Source of the DNA: Pseudomonadota bacterium
GTDB taxonomy: Bacteria; Pseudomonadota; Gammaproteobacteria; Burkholderiales; Thiobacillaceae
Length of the DNA: 64,000 nt
Assembly: GCA_030684775.1 (NCBI GenBank)
Contig: JAUXXW010000083.1
Location: 1-64,000 of the forward strand
Direction of reading: 5' to 3'
The notes beneath the pieces were generated by a model. The model did not search any database, was not told the origin of the DNA, and saw only the letters and a list, made by a program, of their open reading frames with translations. A program made the position numbers and the translations under genes. The first letter of the stretch is position 1. Each line of letters opens with the position of its first letter. This document shows, piece by piece, positions 3 to 62,777 of the stretch.

Positions 3-79
3 CGTAGGGTGGATAAGCGATAGCGCATCCACCATCACCGCTGCCATTGGTGGATGCGCTATCGCTTATCCACCCTACG
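3..79. repeat. Family A palindromic repeat, variant stem
   Basis: Two inverted arms begin and end with CGTAGG/CCTACG. Each arm folds by itself: GGTGGAT pairs with ATCCACC around the loop AAGCGATAGCGC. The architecture matches the copies at 13132, 15182, 31123, 34423, 39505 and 62703, but the stem bases differ and stay paired. Confidence 0.85.
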
Positions 80-6411: not shown

Positions 6412-7248
6412 ATGAATAGCCCCGATTCCTTCCTCCCTCCCCGCATAGATCCCTGGCCCGCGCGCCTCGATCTGTTGCAGAGCGCCACTGGCCTTGTCCT
6501 TGGCCTGTTCATGTGGCTGCACATGCTGTTCGTTTCATCCATTCTGCTGGGCAACGATGCCATGTGGACCGTGGCGCGCTTTTTCGAAGGCTATTTCTTC
6601 TTCGGCTACCCCTTGCCCTGGCTGGTTTCCGCCTTCGTGGCGATGATTTTCGCCTTGTTCGTGACCCATGCCTGGCTGGCGCTGCGCAAGTTCCCCACCC
6701 ACTGGCGTCAACACATGGCCTACATGCGGCACATGCGCGCCATGCGCCATGAAGACACCTTCCTCTGGTTCGTCCAGGTTCTCACCGGCTTCGCCATGTT
6801 CTTCCTGGCGCCGGTGCATCTTTATCTGATGCTGACCCACCCGGAACTGATCGGCCCCTATGAATCCGCCGACCGGGTCTGGAGCGGGCGCATGTGGCCG
6901 CTCTATCTGGTGTTGCTGTTCCTGGTGGAACTGCATGGCGGCATCGGCCTGTATCGCCTGGCGGTGAAATGGGGCGACTTCAAGGATGCCGTCGCTTCGC
7001 GGCGCAAGCTGAAACGCCTGAAATGGGGCTTGACGGTGTTCTTCCTGGTGCTCGGCCTCGCCACCCTGGCGGCTTACATGAAGCTGGGGATGGAACACGC
7101 TCCGAATGCCGGAGAGCGCTACCAGCCGGCGGTGTCTTTTCTCCCCCCTTTGTCAAAGGGGGGCGGGGGGGGATTTCTCGCCCGAGCTTCCGTGCCACCT
7201 TCGCAAATCCCCCCTAACCCCCCTTTGGCAAAGGGGGGAATGGCATGA
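6412..7248 (+). CDS. frdC: Fumarate reductase diheme cytochrome b subunit, Wolinella type
   Basis: This is the membrane anchor of a quinol:fumarate reductase, with five predicted transmembrane helices. Candidate heme ligands are H37, H86, H136 and H175. Their spacing (49, 50, 39) equals that of the four axial histidines of Wolinella succinogenes FrdC (44, 93, 143, 182). E59 and E173 fall where Wolinella Glu66 (menaquinol site) and Glu180 (E-pathway) lie. ATG 6412 is preferred over an upstream in-frame TTG. The last roughly 35 residues (from about FLPPLSKGG) are encoded by a family C repeat, so the native C-terminus has been replaced or extended. The stop overlaps frdA by ATGA. Confidence 0.9.
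7138..7243. repeat. Family C repeat (CCCCCTTT/AAAGGGGG), inside the 3' end of frdC
   Basis: Two copies of the core CCCCCCTTTG-N-CAAAGGGGGG with a GGGGGGATTT tail face each other across a short spacer. The frdC reading frame runs through the element and ends immediately after it. Related copies lie at 9240, 37193 and, as a fragment, 39393. Confidence 0.8.
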
Positions 7249-9237: not shown

Positions 9238-9366
9238 GGAATCCCCCCCAGCCCCCCTTTGGAAAAGGGGGGAGCCAGCGGTAACTCCGCTTCCCCCTGT
9301 GTCACAGAGGGAACGGGCGCCAATGCCACTCCCCCCTTTGGCAAAGGGGGGCCGGGGGGGATTTGA
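9238..9366. repeat. Family C repeat cluster between frdA and frdB
   Basis: Three palindromic units follow one another: CCCCCCTTTGGAAAAGGGGG, then TTCCCCCTGTG...CACAGAGGGAA, then CCCCCTTTGGCAAAGGGGGG with a GGGGGGATTTGAG tail. They fill most of the 178 bases between the two genes. The strong hairpins could affect frdB expression by mRNA processing or partial termination. Confidence 0.8.
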
Positions 9367-10132: not shown

Positions 10133-10930
10133 GTGACTGTTCAGCCCGTCGCAATCGCCTCTTCGACACTGGCCCGCTCGTGTAGCGCCGGCGTCTCGCC
10201 GGCGTCTTTTAAAAAAGCCGGCGAGACGCCGGCGCTACAAGAAAGGCTCAGCCTCAGCCTGAGCGAGCAGACGCTGGAATACGTCCTGCGCCGCAGTTCG
10301 CGCCGTCGCAGCCTGTCGGTCAGGGTTTCCGAGGCCGGTGAAGTGGTGGTCAATGCGCCATTGCGCTTGGCGCAACGCGACATTCACGGTTTCCTATACA
10401 AACACGCCGACTGGATCAGCGCGCGCCTGCAAGCCGCGCGCGAGCACCGTTTTGAATGGCAAGACGGCGCGCAACTGCCTTATCTGGGCGGCCATCTGCA
10501 ATTGCGCCTGCTCGACCAGCCGGGTGCCGCCCGCGCCCGCCAGGATGGCGCGGCGCTGCTGTGCAACGCCTTGCCGGAACAGGCCGCGATCCTGGTGCCG
10601 CGCTGGTATCAGCGCAACGCCCGCGCCCTGTTGGGCGAACGCCTGGCCCATCACGCCGCTCGCGCCGGCCTCGCCATGCCGCCGCTGCGCCTGTCGAATG
10701 CCCGCACCCGCTGGGGCAGCAACTCGGCCAAGGGCGTGATCAGTCTCAACTGGCGCCTGCTCAAGGCGCCGCTTGCAACCATCGACTACGTCATCTGCCA
10801 CGAACTCGCCCACTTCAAGCAGCGCAACCACTCCCCAGCCTTCTGGCGTGAAGTGGAAGCCCTGTTCCCGGATTGGAAAAAAGTCCGGGGCGAACTGCGG
10901 CAGAATGGCCGCCTTTATTTTCAGTTCTGA
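10133..10930 (+). CDS. YgjP-like (DUF45) zinc metallopeptidase
   Basis: The C-terminal half carries the gluzincin-like motif CHELAHFKQRNHSPAFW, preceded by the family segment TRWGSNSAKGVISLNWRL. This places it in the YgjP/DUF45 (WLM/SprT-like) metal-dependent hydrolase family. The true start is uncertain: GTG 10133 gives 265 residues, of which the first about 35 are encoded by a family B repeat (SCSAGVSPASFKKAGETPAL). Conserved sequence begins near LEYVLRRSSRRRSLSVRV. The insertion may have replaced the native start region. Substrate is unknown. It lies 20 bases after frdB on the same strand. Confidence 0.8.
   Translation: MTVQPVAIASSTLARSCSAGVSPASFKKAGETPALQERLSLSLSEQTLEYVLRRSSRRRSLSVRVSEAGEVVVNAPLRLAQRDIHGFLYKHADWISARLQAAREHRFEWQDGAQLPYLGGHLQLRLLDQPGAARARQDGAALLCNALPEQAAILVPRWYQRNARALLGERLAHHAARAGLAMPPLRLSNARTRWGSNSAKGVISLNWRLLKAPLATIDYVICHELAHFKQRNHSPAFWREVEALFPDWKKVRGELRQNGRLYFQF
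10181..10239. repeat. Family B repeat, complete
   Basis: Arms TGTAGCGCCGGCGTCTCGCC and its inverse flank GTCTTTTAAAAAAGCC. Each arm contains GCCGGC...GCCGGC and the whole is a near-perfect palindrome ending GGCGCTACA. It is translated as part of the metallopeptidase N-terminus if the GTG start is used. Confidence 0.85.
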
Positions 10931-13131: not shown

Positions 13132-13209
13132 CGTAGGTTGGGCAAAGCGCAGCGTGCCCAACATGCGCCGGGGGGGGGCGTTGGGCACGCTACGCTTTGC
13201 CCAACCTAC
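13132..13209. repeat. Family A palindromic repeat
   Basis: Two arms CGTAGGTTGGGCAAAGCGCA...GTGCCCAAC face each other around ATGCGCCGGGGGGGGC. Each arm is itself a hairpin, GTTGGGCA/TGCCCAAC. An in-frame TTG start for the next gene falls inside the right arm and is rejected in favour of ATG 13251. Confidence 0.9.
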
Positions 13210-15181: not shown

Positions 15182-15255
15182 CGTAGCTTGGGCAAAGCGC
15201 AGCGTGCCCAACAACCGCTGCCATGTTGGGCACGCTGCGCTTTGCCCAAGCTACG
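15182..15255. repeat. Family A palindromic repeat
   Basis: Arms CGTAGCTTGGGCAAAGCGCA and its inverse end at CCAAGCTACG. Compared with the other copies, GGTT is changed to GCTT in one arm and AACC to AAGC in the other, so the palindrome is kept by paired changes. Confidence 0.9.
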
Positions 15256-15305
15256 ATGTTGCATCGGGCGCGACGGGAATGCCCGGAATTGACGGCAGTG
15301 AGTGG

Positions 15306-15333
15306 GATGGGTTGAGCGATAGCGAAACCCATC
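15306..15333. repeat. Solo family A-type arm with a third stem sequence
   Basis: GATGGGTT and AACCCATC form a perfect 8-bp stem around GAGCGATAGCGA. The loop matches the AGCGATAGCG loop of the 3-79 and 39505 copies, while the stem is different. It lies just beyond the 3' end of the GGDEF/EAL gene. Confidence 0.75.
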
Positions 15334-22660: not shown

Positions 22661-22692
22661 TGTTGGGCACGCTTCGCTTTGCCCAACCTACG
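22661..22692. repeat. Family A half element
   Basis: TGTTGGGCACGCTTCGCTTT followed by GCCCAACCTACG is one arm only. It lies between the GlcD-like gene and ubiA. Confidence 0.85.
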
Positions 22693-31122: not shown

Positions 31123-31199
31123 CGTAGGTTGGGCAAAGCGCGGCGTGCCCAACAAACTGTGCGGAAATGTTGGGCACGCTTCGCTTTGCCCAACCTACG
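31123..31199. repeat. Family A palindromic repeat
   Basis: Arms CGTAGGTTGGGCAAAGCGCG and its inverse (TTCGCTTTGCCCAACCTACG) face each other across AAACTGTGCGGAAA. It occupies a quarter of the 313-base gap before the hydrogenase genes. Confidence 0.9.
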
Positions 31200-33840: not shown

Positions 33841-33909
33841 TGTAGCGCCGGCATCCCGGCCGGCTCTTCCGGGCATGCCAAGGACGCCGGCAGGGATGCC
33901 GGCGCTACA
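33841..33909. repeat. Family B repeat, complete
   Basis: Arms TGTAGCGCCGGCATCCCGGC and GCCGGCAGGGATGCCGGCGC plus TACA enclose TCTTCCGGGCATGCCAAGGA. It lies between the hydrogenase large-subunit gene and the maturation protease gene. Confidence 0.85.
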
Positions 33910-34422: not shown

Positions 34423-34497
34423 CGTAGGTTGGGCAAAGCGCAGCGTGCCCAACAACCCGCCACAATGTTGGGCACGCTGCGCTTTGCCCAACCTACG
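34423..34497. repeat. Family A palindromic repeat
   Basis: Arms CGTAGGTTGGGCAAAGCGCA and its exact inverse surround CAACCCGCCACAATG. It lies immediately upstream of the PAS/GGDEF/EAL gene. Confidence 0.9.
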
Positions 34498-37148: not shown

Positions 37149-37189
37149 AAAGGCTCTTTTTTCGTTAACTGGTGATGCGGTCGGCGCAG

Positions 37190-37294
37190 CGGTCCCCCCC
37201 TTTTTCAAAGGGGGGTTAGGGGGGATTTCTGAGACGGCTGCACAGGCAAACGTCGCTAAATCCCCCTCATTCCCCCTTTGAAAAAGGGGGAGGC
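37190..37294. repeat. Family C repeat, complete
   Basis: The left unit CCCCCCCTTTTTCAAAGGGG with a GTTAGGGGGGATTTC tail and an inverted right unit AAATCCCCCTCATTCCCCCT with TTGAAAAAGGGGG enclose a short spacer. It lies just after the GGDEF/EAL gene. Confidence 0.85.
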
Positions 37295-37334
37295 CACTCG
37301 CATGGGCGCTTTCCCTCGCACCTCCGGCTAAGGC

Positions 37335-38321: not shown

Positions 38322-38400
38322 TGTAGCGCCGGCTTCCAGCCGGCGTCTTTACAGCAGGTGTCGGTATTAAAAAAGACGCCGGCTGGAAGCCGGCGCTACA
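38322..38400. repeat. Family B repeat, complete
   Basis: Arms TGTAGCGCCGGCTTCCAGCC and GGCTGGAAGCCGGCGCTACA are perfect inverses, joined by GGCGTCTTTACAGCAGG and its near inverse. This is the cleanest member of the family. Confidence 0.9.
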
Positions 38401-39504: not shown

Positions 39505-39578
39505 CGTAGGTTGGGCAAAGCGATAGCGTGCCCAACAACCCGTCGCCATGTTGGGCACGCTGCGCTTTGCCCAACCAA
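39505..39578. repeat. Family A palindromic repeat with a truncated right end
   Basis: Left arm CGTAGGTTGGGCAAAGCGAT contains the AGCGATAGCG loop form; the right arm ends CCCAACCAACC, so its final TACG is lost. It lies upstream of the flagellin promoter. Confidence 0.85.
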
Positions 39579-39619
39579 CCCCAGGTTTAACAGCCTCAAA
39601 AAATATTTCAAAAAATTAC

Positions 39620-62702: not shown

Positions 62703-62777
62703 CGTAGGTTGGGCAAAGCGCGGTGTGCCCAACATCATGGTGGTTCGTTGGGCACGCTACGCTTTGCCCAACCTACG
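62703..62777. repeat. Family A palindromic repeat
   Basis: Arms CGTAGGTTGGGCAAAGCGCG and its inverse surround ATCATGGTGGTTCG. It lies between the DUF2802 gene and the fliK-like gene. Confidence 0.9.

Follow-up and report, generated by a model that had tools for sequence, protein, structure and literature searches.

The closest described systems are the REP elements and BIMEs of Escherichia coli, mobilized by TnpA-REP (RAYT group 2, subclass 2.2; PDB 4ER8; PMC8266576, PMC6006769), the GTAG-3 REPs of Di Nocera et al. 2013 (PMC3733652), and the REPINs of Bertels and Rainey, in which two inverted REPs joined by a conserved linker replicate as one unit (PMC3116915). A hairpin-bulge-hairpin is the common plan of the E. 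coli-type (PMC8266576, PMC6006769) and GTAG-3 REPs (PMC3733652). Complementary stem changes and coevolution of RAYT and REP have been reported (PMC2817692), as have sub-families with complementary stem residues (PMC3733652), and in E. coli only GTAG, the bulge, T11 and G32 have so far been assigned as features by which a RAYT tells its own REP from others (PMC8266576). Paired stem changes and RAYT coevolution are known, then; what is added here is the timing of the constraint and an association between one transposase residue and one stem base pair.

In the window, the whole 64,000-nucleotide stretch that was analyzed, all nine copies listed by a sequence-only reading as a family of hairpin repeats (family A) were present, each a REP unit of 30 to 32 nt with the tag GTAG directly 5' of the palindrome, except for the units at 15302 and ending at 39579 (Table 1). 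Inverted pairs, that is REPINs, were found at seven of the nine sites (3, 13132, 15182, 31123, 34423, 39505, and 62703), their two units standing head to head with about 13 nt between them, and single units at 15306 and 22661. Folded as single-stranded DNA, a unit leaves GTAG free and forms a lower stem, a bulge, a 2-bp GC/GC upper stem and a loop of 3 to 4 nt. In this fold, the lower stem has 8 bp, or 7 in the GGTGGAT class, to whose unit the energy model adds one extra closed pair, and the bulge is AA/G in the main class, AA/GC in the GGTGGAT class and GA/GA in the GATGGGTT class. The loop AAGCG-(C/AT)-AGCG that had been taken as constant is really this bulge together with the upper stem. 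Nor is it constant, reading AAGCGCGGCG at 31123, AAGCGCGGTG at 62703 and GAGCGATAGCGA at 15306, and in other copies and other species the upper stem takes other paired forms, among them GCC/GGC, GGC/GCC, GT/AC, and AC/GT. The three lower-stem types that had been named, the dominant GTTGGGCA/TGCCCAAC, GGTGGAT/ATCCACC and GATGGGTT/AACCCATC, are real and fully paired. The supposed fourth, the GCTT/AAGC of the 15182 copy, does not represent compensation within a stem: each of the two units there reads GTAG-CTTGGGCA...TGCCCAAC with C.C at the first pair, and GCTT is matched by AAGC only across the REPIN, from one arm to the other.

Table 1. REP units of family A and the RAYT-family gene in the window
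Feature	Position	Strand	Basis
REP unit, GGTGGAT/ATCCACC class, AAGCGATAGCGC inside, left REPIN arm	4..33	+	Including DNA fold; class also flanks the C204 RAYT
REP unit, GGTGGAT/ATCCACC class, right arm of REPIN 3-79	49..78	-	
REP unit, dominant class GTTGGGCA/TGCCCAAC	13133..13162	+	
REP unit, dominant class, right arm	13180..13209	-	
REP unit, dominant class, G->C at first stem base, own C.C mismatch	15183..15212	+	
REP unit, first-base G->C variant; full pairing with 15183-15212 gives a 31-bp REPIN hairpin	15225..15254	-	
Single REP unit, tag GTGG, GATGGGTT/AACCCATC class, GA/GA bulge	15302..15333	+	
Single REP unit, dominant class	22662..22691	-	
REP unit, dominant class, AAGCGCGGCG inside	31124..31153	+	
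REP unit, dominant class, right arm	31169..31198	-	
REP unit, dominant class	34424..34453	+	Including DNA fold
REP unit, dominant class, right arm	34467..34496	-	Including DNA fold
REP unit, dominant class, GATA variant inside	39506..39536	+	
REP unit, dominant class, decayed tag GTTG for GTAG	39550..39579	-	
REP unit, dominant class, AAGCGCGGTG inside	62704..62733	+	
REP unit, dominant class, right arm	62747..62776	-	
RAYT-family gene, 181 aa	24973..25518	-	NF047646, 90.6 bits (cut-off 80)

Across the 3.85-Mb assembly, the pattern GTAGNNTGGNNNAAGCG gave 720 matches (367 + 353) and the reversed-pattern control none, and genomes of the same genus held between 0 and 686 matches to the exact main form. 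Inverted pairs made up 140 of 225 groups, joined by a conserved short linker of about 13 nt that had one length in most of them, and 155 of 227 groups lay outside ORFs by rough mechanical ORF calls. Family A belongs to the REP elements and REPINs of the E. coli type (GTAG-3, group 2). It shares with the E. coli REP/BIME system the GTAG, lower stem, bulge, and upper stem-loop, as well as inverted pairs and a RAYT flanked by REPs (protein E = 1e-44), but differs in its two-base upper stem, in AA/G or GA/GA bulges where E. coli has AA/GC, in its class-specific lower stems and in several RAYT/REP pairs per genome. With the GTAG-3 REPs it has in common the unpaired di- or trinucleotides between stem and loop, the GC-flanked loops, and sub-families with complementary stem changes (PMC3733652); the published family list, as read, is not matched to this organism, and in family A the class of a stem goes with the RAYT lineage and with one residue of the protein. 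Its inverted doublets with their conserved linker resemble the published REPINs (PMC3116915), but the units are of group 2 and not of Pseudomonas type, and most are without an identified RAYT in the assembly. Another family of GTAG-tagged palindromes in the window has short loops on CGCCGGC stems (10181-10240, 33842-33908, and 38322-38400); units of this kind lie near or within the frame of a RAYT-like gene on contig C37. The window also holds paired C-rich inverted repeats, CCCCCCTTTG..CAAAGGGGGG, without a GTAG tag (7142-7239, 9240-9363, and 37188-37298).

We consider it very likely (probability about 0.93) that family A is mobilized in trans, as folded single-stranded DNA, by RAYT (TnpA-REP) proteins. 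What each RAYT lineage would read is the bulge, the GTAG tag, and certain base pairs in the lower stem, and a stem change would last across lineages only if both arms and the RAYT changed together. Such joint change would leave REP classes with complementary differences, and an inserted copy, being unmaintained, would gather one-sided changes. The suggestion that the repeats are REP substrates of a single-strand transposase was borne out to the extent that RAYTs (NF047646) are encoded, that two of them are flanked by REPs of the family and that the best of them matches 4ER8; cutting and copying of these units by the RAYTs is the probable activity.

Six Y1-transposase genes and two further fragments were found in the genome. 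The RAYT on contig C155 is intact (NF047646, 207.5 bits against a cut-off of 80), matches E. coli TnpA-REP (PDB 4ER8) at E = 1.1e-44 and is bracketed by GATGTGGT...ACCGCATC REPs, of which the downstream one is interrupted. That on C204 (L053 3719-4500) lies between GGTGGAT REPs and is frameshifted near residue 118-124. A RAYT at the start of contig C44 (L178) has GTAGGAGCGGAC..GTCCGCGA repeats to either side of it, a REP type that differs from family A. Two candidates were rejected. The gene in the window has no family A REP in its scanned flanks and no YRR N-terminus, arguing against it as the cognate enzyme. The N-terminal relic on C207 adjoins a dominant-class REP, but no such REP accompanies its intact relatives in G010 and G012, and its start, MTQYRR, points to the GATGGGTT class. 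The 227 contigs of this assembly yielded no RAYT with the short N-terminus expected for the dominant class; the enzyme has either been lost or lies in a gap between contigs. That roughly 700 units stand without an identified living enzyme in this assembly counts against the proposed mobilization, as do the frameshift in the C204 RAYT and the relic state of C207. In the relatives G018 and G016, a dominant-class REP lies just upstream of a RAYT start reading MHYRR, and in G018 dominant-class REPs occur on both sides of a RAYT.

Covariation was assessed on two time scales. Within the main class, 372 units sampled from 1.83 Mb of the genome showed 56 lower-stem changes, every one of them one-sided: 46 were unpaired, 10 gave G.T and none was compensated. 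The two 15182 units, with C.C at their first pair, are among those of this class. Variation per site was about 1.0% in the stem and 1.6 to 1.9% at the tag and inner sites, which leaves room for weak selection on copies and counts against the proposed reading. Between lineages, GTRG-tagged candidates were collected beside the genes of 80 RAYT homologues from genome contigs. Paired with its own second arm, the stem scored 7/7 in 82 cases, and with arms swapped between loci the number of such cases averaged 2.9 and reached 6 at most (50 draws). Only homologue stems scoring 5.5 of 7 or better in pairing had been taken, and the evidence is accordingly this cross-locus control, not the raw pairing rate; it addresses the selection bias and does not entirely remove it. 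On the RAYT tree, pairs 2 and 7 each changed 18 times and pair 5 changed 16 times, nearly always to another standard pair.

Full pairing between lineages together with no compensation within the class argues that pairing is imposed at copying and does not come from selection on the individual copies, so that the constraint acts while a unit is copied and not later. On the simplest reading, only foldable units are copied and copies are unmaintained afterwards. The covariation put forward by the sequence-only reading thus exists between RAYT lineages and is missing inside the dominant class, and its view that the folded form is selected holds for a fold conserved between lineages but not for selection in the copies. 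Taken literally, the outcome that this reading had named as evidence against itself, unpaired stem changes as frequent as paired ones, was seen at the level of the dominant class.

Pairing imposed at copying favors a transposase substrate over a structured RNA (a terminator, mRNA stabilizer, or attenuator), each copy of which would be kept folded by selection at its own locus. REPs of enteric bacteria are known as mRNA elements, and here many copies lie downstream of or between genes, with 40 of 101 contexts convergent by a rough ORF call. An mRNA-element role for REPs has also been proposed (PMC3733652) and was counted in favor of the RNA alternative. Yet none of the 56 main-class stem changes was compensated, orientation between co-directional genes was without preference (21 same, 17 opposite), an Rfam search matched no family, and stem pair 2 changes with a transposase residue. 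A structured RNA would also leave the GTAG tag and the flanking RAYT genes unexplained, and we regard this alternative, which the sequence-only reading had offered alongside the transposase, as weakened and very improbable. Ordinary palindromes or chance hairpins, with the covariation an artifact of unrelated repeat families, might be suspected in a window that also contains the CGCCGGC-stem GTAG family and the C-rich inverted repeats. However, the classes have the inner GC/GC, the tag, and the place of the bulge in common, their positions next to homologous RAYTs mark them as orthologous, and own-arm pairing lies far above cross-locus pairing, which refutes this explanation and makes its probability negligible.

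A further alternative places the constraint on the 31-bp REPIN hairpin, whose arms would be kept alike by pairing or gene conversion. The 15182 REPIN carries one stem-breaking change in both arms, the middle base is alike in the arms of 100 of 140 REPINs against 53 expected, and full REPINs fold at -44 kcal/mol. Likeness of the arms is, however, also expected if REPIN subtypes are copied whole, the first-base C variant occurs in one arm only in eight of nine simple cases, and RAYT genes are flanked by single REPs; we judge this alternative unlikely.

RAYT columns were compared with stem pairs in an exploratory scan, in which the residue after the initiator Met came top for pair 2. With A.T at pair 2 this residue was T in 20/20 homologues, with G.C it was P, S, or A in 25/25, and with C.G it was R or V in 6/7; with T.A the N-terminus was one residue shorter in 9/11, counting L257, which was read by eye. 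With the N-terminus left out of the tree, 14 changes were counted for the residue class, 16 for pair 2, and 17 for the two together. The independent-pairs test, with 2 pairs on starred branches, was too strict, and simulation on the tree was therefore used instead: mutual information between residue 2 and pair 2 was 1.10, whereas the highest value among 2000 simulations was 0.44, and the tree-aware z was 13.3 over 112 columns, the next column for pair 2 reaching 3.7.

The rule was written down before new loci were read. Among plasmid and viral loci, it was right in seven of the eight with a REP, namely those of Pseudomonas, Klebsiella, two cyanobacteria, a Chloroflexota bacterium, Neisseria, and one viral contig; the failure was E. 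coli (S with C.G), an exception named in advance. Viral and phage collections yielded almost nothing. Among 369 genomes drawn from the class, with loci found by a RAYT-start DNA pattern and pairing not demanded, 37 of 44 hairpin units fitted the rule (shuffle mean 13.4, maximum 25 in 5000); one of the seven misses reflects a slip in the parsing of MSYYRR and two are units with their own pair 2 broken. A draw across the phylum added six loci that fit and two, both with S, that do not. The rule is not universal: it breaks down in E. coli, in two enteric-type S loci (G608 and G750), for residue A, seen beside several different pairs, for short N-termini carrying D or E, which accompany A.T, and for GTCGGAA stems where the residue is S or P. 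Its strength is also somewhat overstated, since the residue grouping was chosen after the first set and the validation genomes share the ancestry of that set.

The association names one residue and one base pair and holds across several phyla. In the E. coli structure, the strand that directly follows residue 2, beta-1, is located at the hairpin's GTAG end (PMC8266576), which makes a physical basis plausible, and residue 2 may touch or position pair 2. We infer that group 2 RAYTs probably carry a partial stem code, in which residue 2 or a shorter N-terminus sets pair 2 (T for A.T, P/S for G.C, R/V for C.G, and a short M-[R/H/Q/K]-Y for T.A) and an alpha-3 residue at the position of E. coli R78 goes with A/T or G/C at pair 7. 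If so, RAYT specificity would be predictable, and perhaps switchable, at one or two positions. No residue-level code was found in the literature searched, a search that fell short of a full novelty check and had the primary crystal-structure report outside it. For pair 7, the same 112-column scan gave z = 6.1 with residue 79 (alpha-3 helix; E. coli R78 by alignment). Because pair 7 contains T11, a base contacted by TnpA in the E. coli crystal (PMC8266576), this result serves as a sanity check. At pair 5, the GATGTGG class (L006 / contig C155) had a T.G wobble in 33/33 sampled units, and the same wobble was present in both flanks of the C155 RAYT and in several homologues.
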